Assembly (NCBI GenBank): GCA_016788705.1
Contig: JAEUSQ010000015.1
Location: 62,001 to 126,000, forward strand
Reading direction: 5' to 3'
DNA from: Bacteroidetes Order II. bacterium
GTDB lineage: Bacteria > Bacteroidota > Rhodothermia > Rhodothermales > UBA2364
DNA length: 64,000 bases
Shown here piece by piece: positions 9,439 through 23,157 of this stretch. How positions within the stretch are numbered: the stretch's first letter is position 1; every line of letters begins with the position of its first letter. Under the pieces are notes generated by a model. It saw only the letters and a list, made by a program, of their open reading frames with translations, had not been told where the DNA came from and made no database searches. The translations under genes and the position numbers were made by a program.

Positions 9439-10128
9439 TTAGATTGTTTTAAGCCGTTTAAGTAACATATCTTTAAAAGATGCCCCAATTGGAATAACCG
9501 ATCGCCCGATCACAATAGATGAGTCTGCAATGTCCACAATCTGATCTATACGTACAATAAACGAGCGATGTACCCGAGAGAAGGCATTGGCAGGTAGTTT
9601 CTCCTCAAACCCTTTTATGGTTCCATGTACCACATAATTTTCTTTCACGGTATGGATCCGCACGTAGTCTCCCTGTGCTTCAATCCACTGGATATCCGTG
9701 AGCGCAAGCTTAACAAGCCGCCCTTCCGTTTTGATAAACACATAATCTTGTTCGGGTGACGCTTTTTCTTTTGCGGCCAGCATTCTGGACTGTGCCCGCT
9801 GGACAGCCTTTAAAAAGCGGGCATACTTCACAGGTTTCACCATATAGTCCGTTACTTCCACATCAAATGCTTCCACGGCATACTGCTCTTTTGCACTTAC
9901 CAAAATAACCATAGGTCGGTGTTCCAAACTTTGGATGAATTCGAGGCCCGTCATTTCCGGCATTTCAACATCCAGAAAAATCAGATCAACCGATTGTTTT
10001 TTAAGGACATTGGCCGCCTGAATGGCCGATTCGCAGGTGGCTACCAACTCCAGATCTGAGACCTGAGAAATGTAATGCTCCATGAGCATTCGGGCCATGT
10101 CGTCGTCGTCAACTAATAAACAGCGCAT
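9439..10128 (-). CDS. LytTR-type response regulator
   Basis: The 229-aa protein has a receiver domain (residues 1-115) with acidic pocket DDDD near residue 7. The phosphoacceptor is Asp53 in IFLDVEMPEMTG and the conserved lysine is Lys98 in VKPV. A LytTR DNA-binding domain (residues ~135-229) has IQWIEAQGDYVRIHT and the FSRVHRSFIV motif. It would act as a phosphorylation-controlled transcription factor in the cytoplasm. It starts about 90 nt downstream of the hybrid histidine kinase, so the two form a plausible two-component pair. The kinase's own HPt domain would pass phosphate to this receiver (inference). Confidence 0.93.
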   Translation of the reverse strand: MRCLLVDDDDMARMLMEHYISQVSDLELVATCESAIQAANVLKKQSVDLIFLDVEMPEMTGLEFIQSLEHRPMVILVSAKEQYAVEAFDVEVTDYMVKPVKYARFLKAVQRAQSRMLAAKEKASPEQDYVFIKTEGRLVKLALTDIQWIEAQGDYVRIHTVKENYVVHGTIKGFEEKLPANAFSRVHRSFIVRIDQIVDIADSSIVIGRSVIPIGASFKDMLLKRLKTI

Positions 10129-10220: not shown

Positions 10221-12932
10221 CTAATTCGCCAGTTTTGTCCGGTGTTGTTTTAATTCGGCGATGGCCTGATCTGTAAGGGAAACAATGAATTGCATCCGAC
10301 CATCTTGTGGCGACATGGTCTTCCCTTCCGTTAAGTCCTGTTCCAACGTGTCTAATTGCTGCGCCAATGAATCTATGCCAATCATGCGGGCAGATGATTT
10401 CATTTTATGGGCAATAAATTTGACATGTGCAAAATTGCCCCGACGCCAGAACTCGGTCAGTTCATGAATCTGTTCAGGGGTTTGCATAAGGAAAAGGTCT
10501 ATGACCCGCACCACAAAGGCTTTATTACCAAGGGAATGATCCAATAATTGTTGAATATTGACCGACTGAGCGGGCAGTGAGTCTCCATTGGGAGGAGTGG
10601 GTTTTACCTCAAATTCGAGTGGGATCACAGGAGAAGCCACTACCGTTGTAGGGGGTGGTGTTTTTTCTACAGCTTTTTTACCTGTTGCTGGTGCCGCTAT
10701 CGGCTTGCTATCAGGCTGAAATGAAGGAGTTGTCGTCCAGCGAATGGTTTCTGGAACAGACTCAATTACGGGAACAGGGGCTTTTGGTGTACTGTTTTCC
10801 GTCGTCAGAACTGCTGGCTTCGGAGGTTGTTTGTTTGCTTGCGACTTTTGCCAATGAGAGACCAATACTTTGCGCAAATGGGCAGGCTCAAACGGTTTTA
10901 GCACAAAATCATTCATTCCTGCTTCAAAAACTTGGGCACGGTTTTCCGACAGCATAGAAGCCGTCAGGGCAATAATCGGCAATTCCGTAGAGGTTTTTTT
11001 TAGATTTTGCCGGATAAACTTGGTAGCCTCAATACCATCCATACCGGGCATCTGAATATCCATCAAGATGAGGTCGAAATGGTTTTCCCGTACTTTTTCG
11101 ATGGCTACGAGACCACTTTCAGCCACATCCACTACCGCCCCCCACTTTGTCAACATCTGATGGGCCACGAATTGGTTCATATTATTGTCTTCGACCACCA
11201 AAATGCGAGCGTTGAGCAGGCTTTGGTCCACCTCTAAGCCTTCGTGGGTAGTTGAAGCAGCAACAGACTGCTCCGAAACCAAGAAGGGCAGTACAACGCG
11301 GAACACAGTCCCTTCATTTACGACACTCTTCACTTCGATATTTCCGCCTTGTTGCGACACCAATTCTTTCACAATGGCCAATCCCAACCCTGTACCGCCA
11401 TATTTTCTGGTGGTATCGGTAGCTGCTTGGCTGAAACTGTCAAAAATTCGAGGCAGTTTTTCAGCGGAAATCCCAATACCCGTATCCTCCACTATAAAGA
11501 CCAATGGGATTTTTCCCTCGGTAACCACATCGGCACTCACTTTCAACCTCACTTCGCCCTTTTCGGTAAATTTAATGGCATTTCCCACCAAGTTTAACAG
11601 AATTTGACGGAGGCGAACTTGGTCCCCTACTACACTTTGAGGTAGGTTTTCTTCTGGTAGAATTTGCAGCTTAAGTCCTTTGCGCTCGGCTGTAAACCGC
11701 AGCATGGCATAGAGACCCTTAAATAACTCGTCTAAGCGGAATGGTACTTCTTCAAAATCTATTTTCCCCGCATCAATCTTTGCGAAGTCGAGAATATCAT
11801 TGATCAACGCGAGCAAAGATCCGGCAGAGAACTGAATGGCTTCCAGATACCGAGATTGCTGACGGGTGAGGCTTGTTTCTTCCAGAAGATGCGTCAAACC
11901 AATAACGGCATTTAAAGGCGTCCGCATTTCATGGCTCATATTGGCTAAAAACCGTTCCTTAGACCTGATAGACTGCTCCGCGATGTCGTTTGCACGTAAC
12001 AGATCGGCCTCCGACCGCTTTCGTTCGGTTATATCACGCAAATAGGCCGTGAACAAACGTCGGTCATTATTCTCTATTGGGGTGATGGCCAGTTCAACCG
12101 GAAAGGGTTGTCCATTTTTATGGACGGCCTGCATCTCCATATGCCGACCTAAAACAGGCCCTTGCCCCGTTCTTAAATAATTTTGTATCCCTTTTCGGAG
12201 GATTTCGCGATGCTCTGGAATCAACAATTCCTCTGCCAGCGACTGCCCTATAATTTCGTTTTTGGTGTAGCCAAAGGTACGTTCTGCTGCTGGATTGAAC
12301 TCCAAAATTCGTGAATACTCATCTATGGTAACAATCGCATCTAATGCCGATTCCAAGATCGCCGATTTTCGGGTCTCGCTTTCCCGTAGCCGATGGGTCG
12401 TTCTTTGGCGTTCTTGTAGTTCTTGTAACAACGCCTGATGGGCTAAGCAACGAGAAACAGATTCACCAAATTGTTGGGCAATCGGCTGGAGTTGATTTAG
12501 TTCGCGGGTATAAAACGGAAGTCGGCGCTTGGCATCATACAGTTTTAGAAAGCCCAAGTTTTCTAATCGAAAAACAGCAAATACTCCTTCCGGATAAACA
12601 ATATCTTCGGTGATTAATTCAGAAAAGGCTTCGTGTTCGCTGGAAAGGCTCCAGAATGCGGCCTCGCGTGTCCGTAGGGCAAGTGGATGATCGTAGGCTA
12701 TCACTCCTTCCGTCATGCGGATTTTAGGCTCGGCATAGAGTAGCTCATAACGACGTCCTTCCCCGGCCTGTTTTTCAACCCAAACAGAAACTAAATCTAA
12801 ATTTTTGCGAGCAGCGAGTACTTCCACAAACGCTGCGCAATTGGTCTGAACATCCAAAGAAGTCCCGATAGACAGCGAAATCTCATACAACGTCGCTATA
12901 TCATGTGCTATGTCGAAGCCTGAAAATTGCAT
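10221..12932 (-). CDS. Hybrid sensor histidine kinase (GAF-PAS-HisKA-HATPase-REC-HPt)
   Basis: From the ATG at 12932 the protein is 903 aa. Domains in order: GAF-like (about 6-165), PAS with PAC (about 195-305, ALDAIVTIDEYSRILEFNPA), HisKA with His334 in MSHEMRTPLNA, HATPase with N box GNAIKF and G boxes DTGIGIS and GTGLGLA, receiver with Asp625 in LILMDIQMPGMDG, a Pro/Thr-rich linker, and a C-terminal HPt with His842 in AHKMKSS. No membrane segment is visible, so this is a cytoplasmic phosphorelay kinase. It lies upstream of the LytTR regulator. The frame stays open for 111 further codons (to a TTG at 13265), encoding a Cys-rich stretch of lower GC without any ATG. Whether that part is translated is unresolved. 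Confidence 0.93.
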   Translation of the reverse strand: MQFSGFDIAHDIATLYEISLSIGTSLDVQTNCAAFVEVLAARKNLDLVSVWVEKQAGEGRRYELLYAEPKIRMTEGVIAYDHPLALRTREAAFWSLSSEHEAFSELITEDIVYPEGVFAVFRLENLGFLKLYDAKRRLPFYTRELNQLQPIAQQFGESVSRCLAHQALLQELQERQRTTHRLRESETRKSAILESALDAIVTIDEYSRILEFNPAAERTFGYTKNEIIGQSLAEELLIPEHREILRKGIQNYLRTGQGPVLGRHMEMQAVHKNGQPFPVELAITPIENNDRRLFTAYLRDITERKRSEADLLRANDIAEQSIRSKERFLANMSHEMRTPLNAVIGLTHLLEETSLTRQQSRYLEAIQFSAGSLLALINDILDFAKIDAGKIDFEEVPFRLDELFKGLYAMLRFTAERKGLKLQILPEENLPQSVVGDQVRLRQILLNLVGNAIKFTEKGEVRLKVSADVVTEGKIPLVFIVEDTGIGISAEKLPRIFDSFSQAATDTTRKYGGTGLGLAIVKELVSQQGGNIEVKSVVNEGTVFRVVLPFLVSEQSVAASTTHEGLEVDQSLLNARILVVEDNNMNQFVAHQMLTKWGAVVDVAESGLVAIEKVRENHFDLILMDIQMPGMDGIEATKFIRQNLKKTSTELPIIALTASMLSENRAQVFEAGMNDFVLKPFEPAHLRKVLVSHWQKSQANKQPPKPAVLTTENSTPKAPVPVIESVPETIRWTTTPSFQPDSKPIAAPATGKKAVEKTPPPTTVVASPVIPLEFEVKPTPPNGDSLPAQSVNIQQLLDHSLGNKAFVVRVIDLFLMQTPEQIHELTEFWRRGNFAHVKFIAHKMKSSARMIGIDSLAQQLDTLEQDLTEGKTMSPQDGRMQFIVSLTDQAIAELKQHRTKLAN

Positions 12933-13406
12933 AACCGCGCTACCGTGTTCCGAGGTGAAGGTATTTGAACCAATTAATCTACCACATATTCCTAATGGGT
13001 GCAAACATGATGCCTTATTTCCATTCACACAATTTTTTTGACGATTTTCTATTCCGCAACTTATCTTGCACTCGTCATATTTAGGTTGACCTCTACCTTT
13101 TATCTCATATTGAGACAATGCTTCTGCAAAAATTCTTTCGTAGAAAAAACGCGCTTCAAAGCCACAATTTCGACTTTCATCATTAATTTGCGATAAAAGG
13201 TAATTCACACTGTCATTTTTTGGTATGGTAGTTGATATATTGAATGATATAGCTGTGTCCTGCAATCCGGTCTGTTTTGCATATACGCTCTATCATTCCG
13301 CCAAAGACCTTACCAATACATAGTTTAAAAATACATTAATACGCTTTATATAATAGCTTATCTGATAAGACTTGCTATTGTATAAGGGTGATGATACAGG
13401 CGTTTT

Positions 13407-14441
13407 ATGAACCAAGCAGTTAATATACTGATTACAGGTGCAGGAGGGGCTGCGGCAGTATCCGTATTTAAAGCCCTTAATTTGCCTAACATCACTTGTT
13501 TTATGGCTGATATAGACCCCTATGCTGCGGGCCTATATTTGGTTTCGCCGGAGCGCAGGATATTGTTACCACGTGGTGACCACAAGGCTTTTATACCAAC
13601 CTTGCTCCATGCCTGCCAAAGCAATGGGATAGATGTGTTAATCCCTACTGTTGAGGTTGAATTTTTGTCAATATCTAAATACCGCAACTTGTTTGAGTTT
13701 GATGGAACCCAGTTGATGCTGGCTCCTCAAGAAACACTGGACCTGTGTCTGGATAAGTGGACACTTTTACAGGCCGCCCAAGAAGTCATTCCGATCCCAC
13801 GCACGGCCCTGCTAACCAACACCTTAGACACCACCGACTGGATGCTCCCTGTGATTGCAAAACCCCGAAAAGGGAGCGGTTCAAATGGAATCCACCTGAT
13901 TAAATCGTGGGATTCACTGGCACTCGTTCCAAAAGATGAGTCTTATATTATTCAGGCATATTTACCTGGCCCCGAATTTTCGGTAGATGTCTTTGCTACC
14001 GCCAAAGGCAAAGTGATGGCAGCAGTTCCCCGCGAGCGGTTAAAGATTGATTCTGGGATTGCCGTTGCGGCGAGGATTCGTAGAGATCCCACCTTAGAAA
14101 AGTGGGCCATGAAGCTTGCAGAACGCCTCAAGTTGACATTCTGTGCCAATGTCCAGTTCAAGTTAGACCATGACGGAACCCCACGTTTGCTCGAAATAAA
14201 TGCACGTTTCCCCGGAACCATGCCCCTAACCGTAGCTGCAGGTATAAACATGCCTTTATTATGCCTTCAATCACTTTACGGTGAAACCATCCATGCAGAT
14301 CAATGTAAATATGAAGAAATTTCCGTCATGCGCTATTTGCAAGAAACCATTGTACCCTCTGGTGAAGTGGAAGCATTAGAAAAGGAAAAGGCCTACATGA
14401 CCCACCCAGACCGCTATAAATCCGCCTTAAATTCCGCCTAA
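13407..14441 (+). CDS. ATP-grasp enzyme of the carbamoyl-phosphate-synthase-like type
   Basis: This 344-aa protein begins with a pre-ATP-grasp Rossmann-like domain (NILITGAGGAAAVSVFKAL), followed by the ATP-grasp fold. The ATP-binding PVIAKPRKGSGSNGI segment is around residue 150. The metal-binding end is in QFKLDHDGTPRLLEINARFPG around residue 250. ATP-grasp enzymes ligate a carboxylate to an amine or thiol via an acyl phosphate. The substrates cannot be told from sequence. The gene is first in a tight cassette with a PHP-domain protein (11 nt downstream) and a processive-type glycosyltransferase. It is divergent from the hybrid kinase across 474 bp measured to the ATG at 12932, or 141 bp if the kinase starts at 13265. 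Confidence 0.88.
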   Translation: MNQAVNILITGAGGAAAVSVFKALNLPNITCFMADIDPYAAGLYLVSPERRILLPRGDHKAFIPTLLHACQSNGIDVLIPTVEVEFLSISKYRNLFEFDGTQLMLAPQETLDLCLDKWTLLQAAQEVIPIPRTALLTNTLDTTDWMLPVIAKPRKGSGSNGIHLIKSWDSLALVPKDESYIIQAYLPGPEFSVDVFATAKGKVMAAVPRERLKIDSGIAVAARIRRDPTLEKWAMKLAERLKLTFCANVQFKLDHDGTPRLLEINARFPGTMPLTVAAGINMPLLCLQSLYGETIHADQCKYEEISVMRYLQETIVPSGEVEALEKEKAYMTHPDRYKSALNSA

Positions 14442-14452
14442 CCCTTATTCCT

Positions 14453-15202
14453 ATGTCTGCAAAAAAATTAAACTTAAGGGAAGACCTCCATATTCACTCC
14501 ACCTTTTCGGACGGAGCGGATAGTATAGAAAACAACATCCGAATGGCAATCAGTCGCGGGTTAACGCATATTTGCTGCGTAGATCATGTGCGACGAGATA
14601 CCAATTGGGTCCCGAATTATGTGGATCAGATCCATCAATTCAGACGCAAATACGGGGATCAGATCAAAATCAGCATTGGCATTGAGGCCAAGTTTATCAA
14701 TGCCGCCGGAGATTTGGACTTACCAGATAACATAGAAGGGGTTGAATACATATTTGCTGCCGACCACCAGTTCCCCTACGGCATTGACATTTATAATCCC
14801 CGTCAAATAAAGGAATTATTGGATGAAGGTTTGGTACAACAGGAAGTTCTTTTCCGCCACTTGATTCGTGCGACCATTGGCGCAATGTGGAAATATTCTG
14901 AACAGGCAACGGTTGTGATTGCCCATTTATTCAGTATTTTGCCTAAAGTCGGTCTTTTGGAGCAAGACATCCATATAGAATTGAAAGCGGCTTTGGCGCG
15001 TGCAGCCATAGAAACCGGATCTCAGATCGAAATTTCGGAGCGTTGGCAATGCCCACAATTGGAATCCGCTCACTTCTTATGGGAAATGGGTGTTGAAATG
15101 CCTGTCAGTACCGATAGCCATAAAAAAGAAACCATTGGGGAATATCAGTTTGTCCGGACCATTGCCACACAACTACCTTTACTTTCCATCGAAATAGACT
15201 AA
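14453..15202 (+). CDS. PHP-domain metal-dependent phosphoesterase-like protein
   Basis: The 249-aa PHP-domain protein has the metal-binding motifs in order: DLHIHSTFSDG (residues ~11-21), CVDHVRRD, GIEAKFI, FAADHQFPYG, VVIAHLF and STDSHKKE near the C-terminus. PHP domains bind three metals and cleave phosphate esters, as in histidinol-phosphate phosphatase or the polymerase exonuclease domain. The length and single-domain layout resemble HisJ-type phosphatases, but no his gene is near. It is sandwiched between the ATP-grasp enzyme (11 nt upstream) and the glycosyltransferase, which points to a dephosphorylation step in making or recycling a glycan- or peptide-like product (inference). Confidence 0.85.
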   Translation: MSAKKLNLREDLHIHSTFSDGADSIENNIRMAISRGLTHICCVDHVRRDTNWVPNYVDQIHQFRRKYGDQIKISIGIEAKFINAAGDLDLPDNIEGVEYIFAADHQFPYGIDIYNPRQIKELLDEGLVQQEVLFRHLIRATIGAMWKYSEQATVVIAHLFSILPKVGLLEQDIHIELKAALARAAIETGSQIEISERWQCPQLESAHFLWEMGVEMPVSTDSHKKETIGEYQFVRTIATQLPLLSIEID

Positions 15203-15283
15203 ATCCAATGGAGTTAAAGATGGGAAGTAGCGTGCATGTGCCAGTCGGAAAGCTTGTAAATCCTCGCATCCCAACAATATACC

Positions 15284-16930
15284 TTGGAATTCATACTTAT
15301 CACCCTGAAATGGGTCATGGTTTTTTTCGTTATTTTAGGGACCATGCCTATTTTTGCATCTTTTTATCAATTCATTCTTGCAGGCTTTCATCAGTTTAGC
15401 GATCATTATAACCGTGTAGAAAACTACTATCCGAGGGTTGCTGTTGTTGTGCCCGCCTGGAATGAGGGCGCGGTGATTGGTGCAACCATAGACCGTTTGA
15501 TGAAGATGGAATATCCCGAAGATCGGTTACGAGTATATGTGGTAGATGATGCCAGCACCGATGACACCCCTGACGTTATCCAACAAAAGGCAAAAGAGTA
15601 TTCCGGCAGAACCTTTCATATTCGCCGCGAGAAAGGCGGGCAAGGTAAGGCACACACCCTCAATCATGGCATTCAGCAGCTTCTACATTCAGAACCGGAA
15701 ACTACGCTAAATAACACTCCTGAAGAAGTTTTCAACTCGCCTTTAGAGCCCGATACAGAAACATTTACCCGCCCCAACTTCGAACAAATTGGACGTTATA
15801 TGCCCAATTGGGCACATCTTGATGAATTGGCACAGGTCACAGGCGATCAGTGGGTGGAAGCCTTAATGATCATAGACGCCGATGTCATTTTTGAACGTGA
15901 TGCCCTGCGCAAAATGGCACGCCACCTTTCTGACCCAGAGATTGGTGCTGTAACGGCTTATATAAAGGAAGGGTCTTCACCCGGAAACTATATGCAGAAA
16001 TTTATCGGCTACGAATATATTACGGCACAGGCTGCTTCGCGACGGGCGCAAAATGTTTTAGGAGCGATGTTTTGTTTGGCGGGTGGTGCGCAACTACATT
16101 CCCGCGAAAACCTAGAACTCATAGGCGGACGGATAGACACCAGTTCTTTGGCAGAAGACACCTTTACTACATTTAAAACCCAGATCGAAGCAGGAAAAAA
16201 GGTGGTATTTGAAGGAAATGCGATTGTTTGGGCAGAAGAGCCGGATGATGTGAATGGTCTTTGGAAACAACGCTTGCGCTGGGCAAGAGGCAATGTTCAG
16301 TTAACCAAGCACTTCAAGCATCTTTGGTTCAACAAAACATACCACAGGAAGTTGGGTGGGTTTGCATTTGGGTTTATCTGGTTCAATATTTTTTTGATGC
16401 CCGTCCTTATGATCTTGTCTTCGATAGGCTTGGTTTCGCTTTATTTCATGGATTTCCCCTTTGCTTGGGAAGTTTTTCGGGCTTTTTGGCTTTTTCACGC
16501 CATCAACTATTTATTTGTTACCCTCATGTCTTTTGCCATTGATCCTTTTACAGCCAAGCGAACGTGGTTAGAAGGCTTTCTGTTTCCTGGCATCATTTCG
16601 TTTTCGGTAATTGTCTATTCTTGCTTCCCCGGTCAATTCGTGCGCCAAGTGACGGAATGGCTGGTTGGATCGGGGTTGTTCCCACCAGACTGGGTGGTTC
16701 AGGGAATCATTCTGTTTATTTATGCTTGGCAAGCCTTGTGTATGGTTGCGGCTTGGGGGGTGCGTGCAATTGACAAAACCCGATTTAAATGGCTCTCGCC
16801 GATGCTTATGTACTTTGTTGGTTTTGGCCCCATGCTGTGCGCAATCACGTTTCATTCATACATCTTAGAGGCACAAGGTGCAGAGATGAAGTGGGACAAA
16901 ACGATCAAAACTGGCAAAGTAAAGTCATAA
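15284..16930 (+). CDS. Membrane glycosyltransferase family 2, cellulose-synthase-like
   Basis: This is a 548-aa GT2 enzyme. An N-terminal TM helix (about residues 5-32) is followed by a GT-A domain with VVVPAWNEGAVIGATIDRL, the nucleotide-binding VVDDASTDDTPD, and the DxD equivalent IIDADVIFE. The acceptor motif is QRLRWARGN. Four or so C-terminal TM helices follow (from about residue 355). QxxRW and the TM layout are typical of processive synthases such as cellulose, hyaluronan or poly-GlcNAc synthases. An unusual insertion of about 60 acidic residues (about 135-195) lies between the DDAST motif and the DAD motif. The start is uncertain: a TTG at 15284 or an ATG at 15317; neither has a Shine-Dalgarno sequence. 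The sugar and acceptor are unknown. Confidence 0.88.
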   Translation: MEFILITLKWVMVFFVILGTMPIFASFYQFILAGFHQFSDHYNRVENYYPRVAVVVPAWNEGAVIGATIDRLMKMEYPEDRLRVYVVDDASTDDTPDVIQQKAKEYSGRTFHIRREKGGQGKAHTLNHGIQQLLHSEPETTLNNTPEEVFNSPLEPDTETFTRPNFEQIGRYMPNWAHLDELAQVTGDQWVEALMIIDADVIFERDALRKMARHLSDPEIGAVTAYIKEGSSPGNYMQKFIGYEYITAQAASRRAQNVLGAMFCLAGGAQLHSRENLELIGGRIDTSSLAEDTFTTFKTQIEAGKKVVFEGNAIVWAEEPDDVNGLWKQRLRWARGNVQLTKHFKHLWFNKTYHRKLGGFAFGFIWFNIFLMPVLMILSSIGLVSLYFMDFPFAWEVFRAFWLFHAINYLFVTLMSFAIDPFTAKRTWLEGFLFPGIISFSVIVYSCFPGQFVRQVTEWLVGSGLFPPDWVVQGIILFIYAWQALCMVAAWGVRAIDKTRFKWLSPMLMYFVGFGPMLCAITFHSYILEAQGAEMKWDKTIKTGKVKS

Positions 16931-16960: not shown

Positions 16961-18112
16961 TTACCTGCTTTTTTTGCGGGCAAATAGGAGATTGGCGGGC
17001 AAATGAACCGCCAGTATATAAGGCTCTTCTCCTTGTGACCAATGGCCATAAGTAACGGTTAGAACACGCCCATCCGGAAAAACTTCCACCCCAGGATAAG
17101 CAGCATCCCATTGATTTTTATTGTCTTTGATGCGGAAGCGTAATTCCCCCTTTTTCCCTTCAACCAAATCCTGATATGTGCCCACCCAAGCTACCCAATC
17201 TCCTTTTGTGGGGCTTCCCTCGGCCATATCCCGGAAAGCGATGAACAAACGGCCATCTTTCAGGTATTTTGCCGTATGACGATCCCCAGTCAAAGCGAGC
17301 GGTAAAGCACGTGGCTGACTCCAATTTTCCCCTTCGTCTGTCGAAAAAACAATTTGAGAAGGTGCTTTTCGGCTATTTTCCCTCATTAACAAAGCAATCT
17401 GACGCCCGTCAGGCGATCGAATAGCGCCGGGTTCACAGAGGTGTAATGTGGCATCGGTCAATATTTCGATGGGTTCAGACCACGTTTTGCCATCGTCTGA
17501 GGAAAGGGTCTTATACACCCGAAACCGCCGTTCTCCTGCCCCTTTTTCACGAATAAAACGTCCATCATCGTGAAATAATGCCATAAGGCTGCCTTCTTTC
17601 AAAACCTCTAATGAGGCCATCGCCACAATGCCCCCAAAATTTCCGATCGGCTTAAGTGGCGTCCAATGGTGGCCATTGTCATCGGATGTAGCCAGTCGAA
17701 TGGGGTACAGTCCAGAAAACAGTAAAAGCCGCCTCCCACCTGCTTGGGTTCTGATTTGGTATATGGTGGGTGTTTCAAGCGAGGTGTCCCAATTTTCGGG
17801 TGTCGGGAGGCGTTCACTCCACGTTTTTCCACCGTTTTCACTTTTTTTATACAGAATAGCCCCTTTCCCATGCCCCCGTGGGTAAACCACCAACACGGTT
17901 TTTTGATCATCCAGCAAGACAGTGGTCGGATGTCCCAGATACTGCCCTTTTTCTTGGTCCACCAACTGCTGTAAAGATGATTCGGCATCCAGATCATATT
18001 GTGGAATCCCAAAAAACTGAGCAGATAGGTCGTCGTGCAACAACTTGACAGGCTGACAGGTTGTGAGTAGGACACAGGAGGCCCAAAAAAGCATTTGGTG
18101 AATTACTTTCAT
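16961..18112 (-). CDS. Sialidase/BNR-repeat six-bladed propeller lipoprotein
   Basis: The 383-aa protein has an N-terminal signal sequence with a likely lipobox around LLTTC (residue ~19, with an atypical Thr before Cys). At least four Asp-boxes follow (SENGGKTW, SDDNGHHW, SSDDGKTW, STDEGENW), the hallmark of sialidase-fold beta-propellers. An early arginine (YPRGHGK) and RENS / FRDM segments could supply the arginine triad, but I cannot confirm it. Exo-sialidase activity is therefore possible, not shown; many BNR lipoproteins have other glycosidase or binding roles. I used the ATG at 18112, since a GTG nine codons upstream only adds MSAPEYCIS before the signal peptide. It converges on the glycosyltransferase gene and is divergent from the TPR gene. 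Confidence 0.82.
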   Translation of the reverse strand: MKVIHQMLFWASCVLLTTCQPVKLLHDDLSAQFFGIPQYDLDAESSLQQLVDQEKGQYLGHPTTVLLDDQKTVLVVYPRGHGKGAILYKKSENGGKTWSERLPTPENWDTSLETPTIYQIRTQAGGRRLLLFSGLYPIRLATSDDNGHHWTPLKPIGNFGGIVAMASLEVLKEGSLMALFHDDGRFIREKGAGERRFRVYKTLSSDDGKTWSEPIEILTDATLHLCEPGAIRSPDGRQIALLMRENSRKAPSQIVFSTDEGENWSQPRALPLALTGDRHTAKYLKDGRLFIAFRDMAEGSPTKGDWVAWVGTYQDLVEGKKGELRFRIKDNKNQWDAAYPGVEVFPDGRVLTVTYGHWSQGEEPYILAVHLPANLLFARKKSR

Positions 18113-18344
18113 AGATATACAATATTCGGGGGCTGACACGTCGTTGTAATCAAACCGAGGCGGCGATAAGATAAGGGCGTTCTCCGAAAAAGAAAAACGG
18201 TTTCAAAATCGGGAATTTGGTTATCCAGCAGACCAATTCACGTTTGTTTCGGGAAAGGAAGTTGCTATATTGTTTTGCTATCTTCCGGTCTGCGCATCGG
18301 TACTGTAGTTTATCCTCCATCACCTTCACAAAGACCGCACGTAC

Positions 18345-21300
18345 ATGCGCTTTGTTCTCGTTTCTCCGGCGTTTGGCTTCTCCCCAAAATGCGCCTTGCT
18401 TTTATTTTTGGGGTGGTTTTCTGGTGAACTGGCTTTTGCCCAAACACCTACCACCTCTGCACACACCGAATATGCAACGGCTTTAGCGCTTTTTCAATCG
18501 GGCGTTTATCAAAAAGCCTATGAAGCCTTTAAGTCTTTCGAGCAGCAATATCCGGATCATCCTCATGCGGCAGAATCCCGATATTATCAGGCGGAGTCGC
18601 TACTTGCTTTAGGAAAAACCCAAGAAGCGGCACCGCTCTACGCCTCGTTTGCAAGTCACTACCCCGGCCATCCGTTTGGGGAAAAAGCGCAAATGACCCT
18701 AGGCCAATATTATTTTGAAAAGGGGGAATATGCCAAGTCGCGTGCCGCATTTGGAGGGGTTTTTCAAAACCAAAAAGATCCTGAACTGGCTGCTGAAGCC
18801 CTTTATTGGATGGGGCTAAACAGTATCCGTCTAAATGAAATGGATATTGCCTTAGACTACTTGGATCAAGCCCATATCCGGTTTCCAAATACCCAGATTG
18901 CCCCACAGGCACTGTATCTGGTAGGAAAAACCGAGTTGGAACGTAAAAATTTTGCCCGTGCAGCCGAACTTTTTGATCAATTAGCAAACCGTTACCCCTT
19001 GTCCGACTTTACCGGAAAGACGGCTCTGGCTGGCATGGAAGCCAATTTTGAATTAGGCCGATTTGAACGGGTACTCGGCGAAGGAGACAAACGACTACCC
19101 TTTTTTACAGGCCGCGATTTAGAGCGGGCATTGATGATGATGGGCGAATCGGCCTCACAGTTAAACGATTTTAGTAGGGCACAATATTACTTCACCCAAC
19201 TCAACAACAACTTTCCCCGCAGCCCTTATACCCGATATGCGAATTTTGGCTTAGGATGGACCTATCTTCAACAAAAACAATACAGTACAGCATCAGGTTT
19301 TTTCCGCGCAAGTAAACAGGATTTCAAAGACAATCTGGCACAAAAAGCCACTTATTATGAAGCAGTATCCACATTACTTTTAGGAGAAACCAATCAAGCA
19401 CGCACAATCTTTTCGGATGTAGTGGTACTTTGGCCGCAAGGAGAATTTACAGACCAGGCACTTTTTGAACTAGGTCTCCTTCAGTATAAAGCACAACGTT
19501 GGGAAGAGAGTGCACGGTATTTCAACCAATTGGTAACCGGTTTTCCTGCTTCCAACCGAACCGGAGACGCATATTTGTACCTTGGCGAATCGTTTGCCTT
19601 ATTGGGTGATAACGACCGGGCCAACGCAGCTTTTGAACAAGCCATGCGCCAAACCAATCTGACGGCATCGGCACGCAACCAATTAAGTTATCGGAAAGGA
19701 TGGTTATTGTATCAAAATCGAAATTTTGCAGAGGCACAAGCCGCTTTTGGAACAGCCTTTACGACGTCTAATGCCGGAGAGGCCCTTTTTTGGCAGGCCG
19801 AAAGTTTGGTTCAGGAGGGTAAGTATGCGGATGCCGAACGCCTCTTAAACCAATACATCGCCGGATATAAACAAGATCCAAACGTAAACAGTGCCCATTA
19901 TGTACTGGGTTGGATTTACTTCAATACGGGCCGTTACGACTTGGCTGCCCGCAGTTTCGAGACTTTTACCGCTAACTTCCGGCCCACCGCCAATCAAGAA
20001 GCGTACCGTACCGATGCCCAGATGCGGCTCGGCGACAGTTATTTTGCTTTGAAACGGTTTGATGATGCCGTTCTCGCCTACCGAAAAGTGGGCAATCAAG
20101 GGACCGTATATGCACTCTTCCAGATTGGTCAAGCATACATGAACAGTGGACAGGAGGCCGATGCCATCAATGCCTTCCGTAGATTGGTCGGCAATTATCC
20201 CAACTCCGAATGGGCGCCCGAATCACAATACCTCGTAGGTTACATCCTACTCCAGCAACAAAAATACGACTTGGCCATTAATGAGTACTTCAATGTATTG
20301 CGTTTCTATCCCCAAAGCCCCGAAGCTGCTAAAGCACAATATGGAATCGGAGATGCCTATTTTAACCAAGATCGCTTTTCCGAGGCCATTAATGCATACA
20401 AAGAAGTGATCATCCGGTATCCCCAAAGCCCTGTGATTCCGGATGCACTTATGGGAATTCAACTTTCGTATCTCGCCCTAAATCAGCCTGGTGCAGCCGA
20501 AACGCTCATTGACCAGTATTTGCGCCAAAATCCCGGAACAGAAGTGGCAGATCAAGTACGGTTTAAGCAAGCTGAAATGCAGTTTCAGAATGGTGAAACC
20601 CAAAAAGCCCTCACTGGATTTCAGTACTTTTTGCAGGCGAACCGAAATCCGGCATTAGCCCCAGCTGCAACCTACTATGTAGGAGCCAGTTATTACCAAC
20701 TGAAAGATTACCGAAATGCGGAACAGTACTTAAAACTAGTATTGGATCGTTACCCCTCGGAGCCAGCATCGTTTGAAGCCGCACGTCTATTGGCCAATTT
20801 ATTGCTGACAACCGGAAGGCCCAATGAAGCCCTTAGCTTATTCAAACGATTGGAGACCAATGCAGAGGGAGATATTTCTGAAATCTCCGAAGCCCAATTA
20901 GGTCAGGCGCAAGCCATGATTGCGTTGGGGGATACCGAGGGCGGACGTCGGTTGTTGGAACAAATTGCATCCAAACACGCCACACAAGATGCTGGAAAGA
21001 CGGCCTTACTCCGACTCGCCGCCGTGAACGTACAATTGAACAATTTAAATGCTGCATTAGATCTCTATCGGCGAATGGCCCAAACCAACGACGATGTTTT
21101 TGCCAGTGAAGCACAATTTCGTTATGGAAGCCTCTTGTTGCAGATGAACCGCGCACAAGAAGCCCTTCAAGCCTTCACCGCCATCCAACAACGTTTTCCA
21201 GATGTGATAGATTGGGTGGCGCAAAGTTATTTGGGACAGGCACGCGCATATCGGGCACTCGGCAATCGAGCCAGCGCCCTTCAGGCATATGATCAGGTCA

Positions 21301-21362
21301 TAGTGGAATATGGTCAAACCCCTTATGCACAGATTGCCCGTTCGGAGAAAGCAACACTTTAA
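18345..21362 (+). CDS. Large periplasmic TPR-repeat protein
   Basis: This 1005-aa protein has a signal peptide (cleaved after about residue 32, ELAFAQ). The rest is a solenoid of about 25 tetratricopeptide-like repeats with recurring motifs such as ALFQSGVYQKAYEAF, YPDHPHAAESRYYQA, YLVGYILLQQQKYD and YPQSPEAAKAQYGIG. The alternation of one TPR helix pair with Y-P-S-P turn sequences resembles the YbgF/BamD-like class of periplasmic TPR proteins that tether outer-membrane and inner-membrane machines. It is the first gene of a five-gene plus-strand cluster. The barrel protein follows after 34 nt. A scaffold role is an inference. No enzyme motif is visible. Confidence 0.86.
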   Translation: MRFVLVSPAFGFSPKCALLLFLGWFSGELAFAQTPTTSAHTEYATALALFQSGVYQKAYEAFKSFEQQYPDHPHAAESRYYQAESLLALGKTQEAAPLYASFASHYPGHPFGEKAQMTLGQYYFEKGEYAKSRAAFGGVFQNQKDPELAAEALYWMGLNSIRLNEMDIALDYLDQAHIRFPNTQIAPQALYLVGKTELERKNFARAAELFDQLANRYPLSDFTGKTALAGMEANFELGRFERVLGEGDKRLPFFTGRDLERALMMMGESASQLNDFSRAQYYFTQLNNNFPRSPYTRYANFGLGWTYLQQKQYSTASGFFRASKQDFKDNLAQKATYYEAVSTLLLGETNQARTIFSDVVVLWPQGEFTDQALFELGLLQYKAQRWEESARYFNQLVTGFPASNRTGDAYLYLGESFALLGDNDRANAAFEQAMRQTNLTASARNQLSYRKGWLLYQNRNFAEAQAAFGTAFTTSNAGEALFWQAESLVQEGKYADAERLLNQYIAGYKQDPNVNSAHYVLGWIYFNTGRYDLAARSFETFTANFRPTANQEAYRTDAQMRLGDSYFALKRFDDAVLAYRKVGNQGTVYALFQIGQAYMNSGQEADAINAFRRLVGNYPNSEWAPESQYLVGYILLQQQKYDLAINEYFNVLRFYPQSPEAAKAQYGIGDAYFNQDRFSEAINAYKEVIIRYPQSPVIPDALMGIQLSYLALNQPGAAETLIDQYLRQNPGTEVADQVRFKQAEMQFQNGETQKALTGFQYFLQANRNPALAPAATYYVGASYYQLKDYRNAEQYLKLVLDRYPSEPASFEAARLLANLLLTTGRPNEALSLFKRLETNAEGDISEISEAQLGQAQAMIALGDTEGGRRLLEQIASKHATQDAGKTALLRLAAVNVQLNNLNAALDLYRRMAQTNDDVFASEAQFRYGSLLLQMNRAQEALQAFTAIQQRFPDVIDWVAQSYLGQARAYRALGNRASALQAYDQVIVEYGQTPYAQIARSEKATL

Positions 21363-21396
21363 ACCCGAAAACGCCCTATAAAACAGTTTAAGAGTT

Positions 21397-23157
21397 ATGA
21401 AAAGCTATCGTTTTGGGGTTCTATTTTTTTTACTAATCGGACAGGTTTTGCTGGCACAACCCGTTGTACCGGACCTTAAGCCGAATGAAGTGGTGATCCG
21501 AAGCAAAAAGCCAATCGAATTACCAAAAATAGAACGCCCCTCCATCACCAGTTTGGTAATTCCTCCGAAGCCTTTTTCACCACCCGAAGGACAAACCCCT
21601 TTTATTGGTGGGTACAAGCAAAACCCCACCGAACTTCCTCATAATTCGTTGGCCGATGTTCCCGTTGGCGATCGTTTTACCCTGTCTTCTGCACAGCCAA
21701 GACAACTTCTACTAAAAGCGTCTGCGGGCCGTTATTTTAGTCGTGAACTTCAGGCATTTGCCCATGTACCGTTTCGGGATGGGGTTGCTTTTTTTGGGGA
21801 TATAGACTACTTGGGGAGCGATGGACATCAGCCTTTTGAAGCAAAACCGGATTTAAAGGCTACTTTTGCGAATTTCAAACTTAAAATCGGCTCCTCTCAA
21901 GAATACCAAAAAAGTATTGCCCGTTTGATTCTGAATGGCTTTTCCACCCGAAACAATCTTTTTGGTGCCGATACAATGATGGTGGTGACAGGCCCTAAAC
22001 TAATGGCACAGCCCCTCCGAAAGGGACGTGGCCTAGGAATCGGCGGAGATTGGTACGCCCTCGAAACCGCCCGTTTCCCTTTTAAAATTCGTGCTGACTA
22101 CCAGAGTGAACGATTCGATAGTGACATATTATCTGTTGCACCGGATATCTATTCCAGAACTGAAAAACGCATGAATCTCGGCGGCGAGGCCCGAATACCC
22201 ATGGGAAAAGTTGAGTTTTTTTCGGATGCACACCTGACCCTCTCTGCAATAGATTCAAAAGCCGTACTCGGTTCAGACTTGCTTTCGCAATCGGTGAAAG
22301 CAGGGATTACTTGGATGATCACGAAGGCATTATGTATCAGCACGGGTCTTCAATATGCTGGCTTTGAGGCTTCGGAAAGAAACATGGGTACGGAACCTGT
22401 TTCAAAAAACTTCTTCGCACCTTATATCCGCGCCGATTATTTCTTCCCCAAAGGATTGCAGGTGTTTTTGAAAAACGACCCCCGCATCATCCATCATACT
22501 ACCTCCGGCTTATTTGCACAGAATCCGTATTTGATTGATGATCCGATAGTTAAACCAACCGTAAGCACCATTGCCATTGAGTCTGGTATCGGTTTAAGAA
22601 GACAACCTTATCAGTTTGGTTTTAAAGCAGGTTATACAAAAAACCCGGAATATTTATATTTTCAAAAGGCTACCAAGGACCGATATGCAGGTTTTGCAAG
22701 AGGGATATTTGAATCTCAATATGCACTGGCGGATGCTTTTTATGCACAGGCCGAGGCGGGTATCACCCTTTTTGAAGTCCTTTGGGCTTCGGTGACGGCA
22801 AAGTTACAAAATGGACGCCTGATTGGTTCAGAGGGAAACGAAGATACCCTAATCCCACATGAAGCCACATTTGAGTCTTCTGGCAGCCTCGTGTACACCT
22901 TTTTAAAACAAAAGGCACGTCTTCAAGCGGATATTAACATGATTGGCACGAGATATGCAAGCACCGATAAAACAGGAGAAGTTACACCTGTATTGGATTT
23001 AGGAATTTCAGGGAGTTATCAAATTTGGAAAGACTATGGCGTTTATGCACAAGTAAAACACCTTTCCGCCAGTCCATACGAACGCTGGGCTGGCTATCCT
23101 GAAGCCCGATTTGTGGTGATGCTGGGTATTAAAACAGCCTTGAATGTATTGAATTAA
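21397..23157 (+). CDS. Predicted outer-membrane beta-barrel protein
   Basis: This 586-aa protein has a signal peptide (residues 1-20, ending LLAQ). A proline-rich periplasmic segment of about 60 residues (PKIERPSITSLVIPPKPF) follows, and then a long run of alternating hydrophobic/polar beta strands rich in aromatic residues. The C-terminal strand ARFVVMLGIKTALNVLN fits an outer-membrane barrel end poorly in its last residue, but the remaining pattern is barrel-like. No TonB-dependent plug domain is seen. I do not recognise a named family. It lies between the TPR scaffold and the SPOR protein, so it is probably the outer-membrane part of the same envelope machine (inference). Confidence 0.7.
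   Translation: MKSYRFGVLFFLLIGQVLLAQPVVPDLKPNEVVIRSKKPIELPKIERPSITSLVIPPKPFSPPEGQTPFIGGYKQNPTELPHNSLADVPVGDRFTLSSAQPRQLLLKASAGRYFSRELQAFAHVPFRDGVAFFGDIDYLGSDGHQPFEAKPDLKATFANFKLKIGSSQEYQKSIARLILNGFSTRNNLFGADTMMVVTGPKLMAQPLRKGRGLGIGGDWYALETARFPFKIRADYQSERFDSDILSVAPDIYSRTEKRMNLGGEARIPMGKVEFFSDAHLTLSAIDSKAVLGSDLLSQSVKAGITWMITKALCISTGLQYAGFEASERNMGTEPVSKNFFAPYIRADYFFPKGLQVFLKNDPRIIHHTTSGLFAQNPYLIDDPIVKPTVSTIAIESGIGLRRQPYQFGFKAGYTKNPEYLYFQKATKDRYAGFARGIFESQYALADAFYAQAEAGITLFEVLWASVTAKLQNGRLIGSEGNEDTLIPHEATFESSGSLVYTFLKQKARLQADINMIGTRYASTDKTGEVTPVLDLGISGSYQIWKDYGVYAQVKHLSASPYERWAGYPEARFVVMLGIKTALNVLN

Follow-up and report, generated by a model that had tools for sequence, protein, structure and literature searches.

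During capsule amidation in Campylobacter jejuni, ethanolamine-phosphate or serinol-phosphate is first coupled to glucuronic acid by the ATP-grasp domain of Cj1438, after which Cj1435 cleaves off the phosphate group (PMC11800379). Receiver domains on metabolic enzymes are already known, and the accessible part of one survey includes a receiver fused to a BcsA-like family 2 glycosyltransferase (GT2) in Methanobacteriaceae; its main text makes no mention of PIG-L, LmbE or a deacetylase (PMC5847659). On the Sinorhizobium megaplasmid pSymB, the nodP2-smb21248 cluster has been ascribed to an unknown, probably sulfated polysaccharide, and the portion of that account available names the epimerase SMb21228 and gives the PHP/ATP-grasp gene pair of the cluster no role (PMC5498481). 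Here we describe a locus that shares features with all of these, found in 64,000 nt of contig JAEUSQ010000015.1 (positions 62,001 to 126,000, assembly GCA_016788705.1) of Bacteroidetes Order II. bacterium, the whole of which is called the window below. Three plus-strand open reading frames (ORFs) form a cassette encoding an ATP-grasp ligase, a PHP metal phosphoesterase and a membrane GT2, and this cassette travels between distant bacteria together with a PIG-L deacetylase that carries a fused response-regulator receiver (REC-PIG-L). We consider it slightly better than an even bet, at roughly 55%, that the window genes belong to a signal-gated module of four components which makes or edits an N-modified exopolysaccharide, and we read the whole best as a two-component output in the form of a polysaccharide-modifying enzyme that has a pathway dedicated to it.

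Linkage, co-occurrence and descent

An earlier note on this DNA had reported the three genes in tight order; the genes and the 11-nt gap between ATP-grasp and PHP stand, while the gap between PHP and GT2 is 81 nt and not 82. Both congeners (G001 and G002) retain the order, with orthologues that are 93/81% (ATP-grasp), 96/88% (PHP) and 95/87% (GT2) identical, and purifying selection acts on all three genes, the ratio of nonsynonymous to synonymous substitution rates (dN/dS) between the window genome (G000) and G001 being 0.033-0.064, with ATP-grasp at 0.064. As the entire surrounding region is syntenic within the genus, gene order is uninformative there, and the case against chance rests on other phyla. 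The query of a genome scan was a PHP alignment built from window, congener and Sinorhizobium sequences, and the best 80 of 261 confirmed loci were analysed. The ten best (L069-L078) belong to Actinomycetota (7), Gemmatimonadota, Myxococcota and one proteobacterium. Profile searching placed an ATP-grasp gene in nine of these ten and in 19 of the 80 overall; L073 has none beside its PHP gene, and its genome carries ATP-grasp adjoining GT2 on another contig (L175). PHP-domain extraction was tried on 82 loci (the 80 plus two Sinorhizobium plasmid loci, L066 and L067), and 10 were dropped for want of a domain of at least 150 residues, among them L078 with its frameshifted ORFs. Of the 72 remaining loci, 20 have ATP-grasp within 2.5 kb of PHP; all 20 rank among the 21 top-scoring PHPs, where only L073 lacks such a neighbour.

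When the three-gene order was looked for in other genomes, as the earlier note had advised, ATP-grasp, PHP and GT2 were found in the same order and on the same strand in four of the ten best loci (L070, L071, L077 and L078), against nine with the pair. GT2 is on the same stretch in six, the other two being L072 (adjacent, opposite strand) and L076 (3 kb away), and in L074 it lies farther along the same contig (L176); a whole-genome search detected the GT2 subfamily in 9/10 best-locus genomes, all except G422, the genome of L075. By BLASTP, full-length Actinomycetota cassette GT2s are 46-50% identical to the window GT2, and identities to the window are 43-46% for cassette-clade ATP-grasps and 37-47% for PHPs, ranges that refer to full-length rows and leave out the L078 fragments and the divergent L076 ATP-grasp (32%).

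REC-PIG-L, whose deacetylase part is LmbE-type (N-acetylglucosamine- or GlcNAc-type), was found by inspecting the cassette neighbours. It stands beside the pair in nine of the ten best loci (all except L075) and overlaps the ATP-grasp start in L070 and L072. This linkage led us to predict a REC-PIG-L in the window's genome, which was borne out: one of its five PIG-L genes, on contig C20 outside the window, encodes a 337-aa REC-PIG-L (L150) with 43-52% identity to the cassette-linked proteins. Its neighbourhood is the same in all three species of the genus, and its amino acid sequence is identical between G000 and G001 despite a synonymous divergence (dS) of 0.20. Pfam domain calls, made for three linked copies and the window genome's own, identify the receiver (PF00072, 80.3 bits, cut-off 30.2) and the PIG-L domain with its AHPDD and HQDH motifs (PF02585, 91.8 bits, cut-off 28.2). 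Receiver residues E17, D18, D62 and K112 are kept in 9/9 aligned rows, as are PIG-L residues H147, D149, D150, H242, D244 and H245; judged by sequence, with its acidic pair, phospho-acceptor Asp and Lys, the protein would qualify as a response regulator. A literature search, with most subscription papers outside the searched library, yielded no description of a REC-PIG-L fusion or of the four-gene set.

A sample of 394 genomes from the window's phylum was searched for the PHP subfamily with a profile of three near-identical sequences (E <= 1e-10), which could miss distant members; only the three genomes of the window's genus matched. The same three genomes are the ones with full-length REC-PIG-L (3/394; G303 and G335 match it in the PIG-L part only) and with the cassette GT2 (3 of 335 genomes searched), and ATP-grasp relatives are common (60/394). 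An independent sample, the class to which the Conexibacter genome of L071 belongs, contains PHP in two of 129 genomes, GT2 in the same two and REC-PIG-L in those two and G546. We give practically no credence to a chance neighbourhood of unrelated genes: genus-wide synteny, under which order proves nothing, would leave room for one, but the order recurs in distant phyla with GT2s at the identities given above, and the genes co-occur in two independent samples. The cassette is a real, seldom retained gene set.

Descent of the cassette PHP and ATP-grasp is congruent. In a PHP tree that took 15 of the 51 unlinked PHPs, a single clade (100/99) unites the 11 cassette rows and separates them from these 15 and from 11 B pairs; the ATP-grasp tree likewise has a cassette clade (99/98), from which only L076 is missing. 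Both trees place the archaeal locus L079 as neighbour of the cassette clade (86/84 and 95/93), and a free PIG-L gene with no receiver fused lies just upstream of its pair; because of this position, deacetylase, ligase and phosphatase were probably associated before the receiver was fused. The B pairs, PHP/ATP-grasp pairs of other glycan islands, constitute a sister group. They sit in surface-glycan islands, as in S. meliloti pSymB (L066, 5944-7673), where the pair is beside cysD-nodQ-cysQ and an epimerase, and in L081 and L139, whose islands contain NeuB-, NeuC- and CMP-sugar-synthetase-like genes (named by eye). In Rhizobium setariae, a free-standing PIG-L gene (L107, 4019-4708) is found ~1.3 kb from a B-type pair. 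A record of an Acetoanaerobium plasmid, in which PHP lies among murB, rapZ and whiA-like genes (named by eye) without ATP-grasp, was set aside.

The encoded proteins and their surroundings

The ATP-grasp protein matches ATPgrasp_Ter (PF15632, 110.8 bits, cut-off 29.1) as well as ATP-grasp_3 and PylC-like_N, and its residues K117, K152, E263, N265 and R267 are conserved in 10/10 aligned rows. The earlier note would have put the cassette down to chance had this protein grouped with a housekeeping ligase or had the three genes seldom co-occurred, and neither is the case. Only one domain matches the CarB model (TIGR01369), at 20.4 bits for a cut-off of 1027, and by score it is not PylC either (TIGR03909, 51.5 bits, cut-off 248.3). 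Its nearest NCBIfam model, the carbamoyl-phosphate-synthase-like PRK12767 (NF009402), is reached with 179 bits, below the cut-off of 218. The predicted structure has a predicted local distance difference test score (pLDDT) of 89.6, and its best PDB match is 2pn1 (Z 33.1, 299 residues, 2.1 A), a structural-genomics protein of uncharacterised function. Since carboxylases, PurK and PylC (PDB 4ffr, Z 26.8) all follow at Z 25-28, the fold gives no substrate assignment; the product would be an amide, or else the outcome of some other carboxylate ligation. In locus L061 (8320-9862, genome G392), an ATP-grasp relative adjoins a HAD phosphatase instead of a PHP gene, in an island whose other genes encode a DegT aminotransferase, an epimerase and a Gfo/Idh protein, with a flagellin-like gene alongside, and the type of phosphatase may thus be exchangeable. 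No stretch matching the ATP-grasp patterns was found in viral contigs.

For the PHP protein, the only Pfam match is the general PHP model (PF02811, 44.9 bits, cut-off 26.4), and the positions of metal ligands H15, D20, H45, E78, H105, H158, D221 and H223 are conserved in 12/12 rows. The score against HisJ histidinol phosphatase (TIGR01856) is 45.2 bits where 90.2 would be needed, and phage records gave one weak match in one record (21.5% identity, E 4e-4). PHP-type tyrosine phosphatases act in capsule operons, and it might be argued that this one, too, regulates capsule synthesis as a protein-tyrosine phosphatase of the CpsB/YwqE type, with ATP-grasp unrelated to it. We hold this to be very improbable, as its closest matches by sequence in the PDB are PolX, YcdX and histidinol phosphatase, Pfam points to nothing narrower than PHP, and the PHP and ATP-grasp trees agree, with the two genes adjoining in 20 of the 72 loci, the best-scoring ones. 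Each genus member has a second PHP-related gene (L058 8734-9540, on G000:C50 at ~24.7-25.5 kb; L059 9370-10119; L060 8042-8791), which shares ~30% identity with the cassette PHP and has other residues in place of most metal ligands (HxH and DH are lost, for example). Selection on this gene is nevertheless purifying (dN/dS 0.08-0.12), so that its product may still function as a pseudoenzyme; in G000 and G001 its neighbour is a LysM/amidase-like gene.

The third protein matches Glyco_tranf_2_3 in Pfam (93.3 bits, cut-off 27) and has five hydrophobic segments by hydropathy scan. Motifs VVDDAS, DADV, AEDTF and QRLRW lie at residues 88, 198, 290 and 329 (each number marking where the core searched for starts), the last being the processive motif already named in the earlier note, and D88, D89, D198, D200, E291, D292, Q329, R332 and W333 are invariant in 8/8 rows, so that D, DxD, ED and QxxRW motifs together with the membrane segments would place the protein in the processive membrane GT2 class. 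The best NCBIfam model is PgaC/IcaA (TIGR03937), and the score of 132.2 bits (132.4 for the Conexibacter homologue) is far under the cut-off of 422.3. We can also corroborate the acidic insertion of ~60 residues, since the 57 residues ahead of the DxD region contain 11 D+E versus 2 K+R. It is found in the window, G001 and G002, where it is variable, and is absent from all five homologues of other genera; it is therefore not part of the shared function of these GT2s and is a lineage feature. The structure prediction of the GT2 has a mean pLDDT of 48.5, with the insertion and most of the catalytic domain below 50 and uninterpretable.

The hybrid kinase next to the cassette, likewise mentioned in the earlier note, is transcribed divergently from it and is followed by a LytTR response regulator (9439-10128); the kinase ORF start possibly lies too far upstream, as the congener ORFs are 935 and 907 aa long. 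One weak promoter-like match, TTAAAA-18-TATAAT, is present on the plus strand (13325-13354) between kinase and cassette, and promoter-like sites in the scanned stretch number 6 against a shuffle mean of 7.6 and are thus not enriched. All feature coordinates are collected in Table 1.

Table 1. Features of the cassette region, in window coordinates.
Feature	Position	Strand	Basis or remark
Hybrid histidine kinase, PAS-HisKA-HATPase-REC-Hpt	10221..13265	-	Pfam
Divergent intergenic region, kinase/cassette	13266..13406		141 nt
ATP-grasp ligase, 344 aa, PRK12767/PylC-like group	13407..14441	+	Pfam, model, conserved residues
PHP metal phosphoesterase, 249 aa, subfamily tied to ATP-grasp gene, motif DHVRxDTxWxP	14453..15202	+	Pfam PHP
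Membrane GT2 synthase, 548 aa, processive-type motifs	15284..16930	+	Pfam, motifs, hydropathy
Acidic GT2 insertion, about 56 residues (134-190)	15683..15853	+	Present in 3/8 aligned rows

Convergent with GT2 and 30 nt from it, a BNR-repeat (sialidase-like) protein is encoded at 16961-18139 on the minus strand and is present in both congeners; it possibly acts on the cassette product. On the plus strand at 18345-23157, a 1005-aa tetratricopeptide repeat (TPR) protein precedes one of 586 aa that matches no Pfam family. The TPR protein (18345-21362) has YbgF/BamD-like repeats and a weak PorW/SprE match. Anti-phage defence was also considered and dropped, as PADLOC (1e-5) returned no defence-system match for the three cassette proteins or REC-PIG-L; its one weak match, to the kinase, runs through the receiver domain of the latter.

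Proposed mechanism and competing explanations

In the Gram-negative members L069, L073 and L174, TPR proteins are encoded directly after PHP, with a BcsB-like gene in L069, and both Gemmatimonadota copies (L174 and L176) have NtrC-type regulators and PAS-GGDEF-EAL proteins nearby. Taken with the processive GT2 motifs, these neighbours point to an exopolysaccharide; the Sinorhizobium pair, too, lies in a polysaccharide cluster. We propose that a hybrid kinase, the likeliest being that encoded divergently beside the cassette, would use its Hpt domain to phosphorylate REC-PIG-L, whereupon the PIG-L domain would free the amine of an amino-sugar precursor or glycan from its N-acetyl (or other N-acyl) group. 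ATP-grasp would activate a carboxylate with ATP and form an amide with the freed amine or, alternatively, join a phosphorylated amine by an amide to a uronic acid; PHP would take phosphate off the substrate or product of that step, and the membrane GT2 would polymerise the sugar and pass the chain outward. What the sequences establish is which enzymes are encoded, that their genes are linked, co-occur and descend together, and that catalytic motifs are intact and purifying selection acts; the substrates, the sequence of reactions, the extracellular product and the kinase partner are inferred. Besides the order resembling that of Campylobacter, an amide swap on an amino sugar, with acetyl removed and another acyl or aminoacyl group added, is thus the other natural reading. 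The earlier note had suggested an amide-modified or a phosphate-bearing glycan; the first is plausible and gains a deacetylase partner, while positive evidence for the second is lacking.

The hybrid kinase of the window is a candidate phosphate donor for the unlinked REC-PIG-L of the same genome. In L187 (7859-11940, genome G546), a REC-PIG-L without cassette is divergent from a PAS-PAS-HisKA-HATPase-REC-Hpt kinase, whose domain order matches that of the window kinase and which is the cleanest candidate for a kinase partner that we have seen.

The enzyme kinds also admit a product of another sort. Mycothiol and bacillithiol are made by a glycosyltransferase, a phosphatase, a PIG-L deacetylase and an ATP-dependent ligase, which our four components match step for step, and the best NCBIfam match of the PIG-L part is BshB1, the bacillithiol deacetylase (TIGR04001, 100 bits; PDB 6p2t). 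The genes could accordingly make a small glycoconjugate, a GlcNAc-containing metabolite built in this manner under two-component control on a lipid- or membrane-bound acceptor. We regard this as unlikely yet deserving of serious weight: the thiol pathways use soluble GT4 glycosyltransferases, whereas the cassette encodes a membrane-bound GT2 that keeps the processive QxxRW in every row, the BshB1 cut-off of 182.5 is missed, and TPR, BcsB-like and cyclic di-GMP (c-di-GMP) proteins surround the genes in Gram-negative loci.

A distinctly unlikely arrangement, in our view, is that of writer and eraser, in which ATP-grasp adds an amide-linked group and REC-PIG-L, acting as an amidase, removes the same group, so that the phosphorelay would tune decoration and not synthesis. 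PIG-L enzymes do include amidases, Mca being one, a receiver fusion would make sense on an eraser, and most B-type pairs lack PIG-L. The receiver-free PIG-L genes adjoining the pair in L079 and near it in L107, however, fit a constitutive pathway step equally well.

Returning to the signal-gated exopolysaccharide module, several observations weigh against it. REC-PIG-L is not linked to the cassette anywhere in the window's genus. The kinase core occurs in only 4 of the ten best loci, versus 2 of the 70 others, and a fixed partnership of kinase and cassette was dropped on this account. G546 has REC-PIG-L without PHP or GT2 matches, and conversely L075 (G422, a genome of unestablished completeness) has the ATP-grasp/PHP pair without a REC-PIG-L or GT2 match. 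B-type pairs in glycan islands are mostly without REC-PIG-L, and the deacetylase is therefore not required by the pair everywhere. The L076 ATP-grasp branches elsewhere, outside the cassette clade, and the PHP metal ligand H13 is kept in 10/12 rows and is Q in the other 2. Finally, no export gene adjoining the window cassette could be named, the nearest TPR protein resembling YbgF/PorW types and not PgaA.

More tentative than the module itself, and in our estimate somewhat short of probable, is the fuller proposal of a new class of signal output, in which a phosphorelay uses the receiver-fused deacetylase to change an extracellular polymer chemically and directly, a dedicated set of ligase, phosphatase and synthase makes that polymer and moves between phyla as a module, and polymer charge or decoration could be switched within minutes without transcription or c-di-GMP. 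If true, this would amount to direct post-translational signal control over polysaccharide chemistry, and it suggests that bacteria are able to alter surface-polymer chemistry directly upon a signal. Three unannotated neighbours become a four-component system with a defined partner list, a function class is offered for the widespread and unexplained PHP/ATP-grasp pair, including that of the Sinorhizobium symbiosis megaplasmid, and a receiver-fused PIG-L deacetylase joins the short list of response regulators with metabolic-enzyme output.

Comparison with described systems

Capsule amidation in C. jejuni resembles the cassette in bringing an ATP-grasp ligase (Cj1438C), a phosphatase (Cj1435) and a GT2 into one pathway; it differs in that its ligase is TupA-like and fused to GT2, whereas the window phosphatase is a PHP protein, and in that PIG-L and a receiver domain are not described for it in the available part of the source (PMC11800379). 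With BshB1 and MshB, the bacillithiol and mycothiol deacetylases, REC-PIG-L shares the PIG-L domain with AHPDD and HQDH, and it departs from them in its sub-threshold BshB1 score, receiver fusion and genomic partners. The poly-GlcNAc synthases PgaC/IcaA, whose NCBIfam model the GT2 matches best, are likewise membrane GT2s with QxxRW, yet the window GT2 stays far under their cut-off and has a C-terminal signature of its own, GAEMKWxKTxKxG. The partners of the cassette also differ from those of the pgaABCD set. The nodP2-smb21248 cluster of pSymB has the PHP/ATP-grasp pair in common with the cassette, in its sister B group, but in reversed gene order, without REC-PIG-L and with a sugar epimerase following it. 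The Methanobacteriaceae fusion, as far as the accessible part of its report goes, shares with our system a receiver placed directly on a polysaccharide or metabolic enzyme (PMC5847659); there the receiver is on the glycosyltransferase, whereas in the cassette system it is on the deacetylase.

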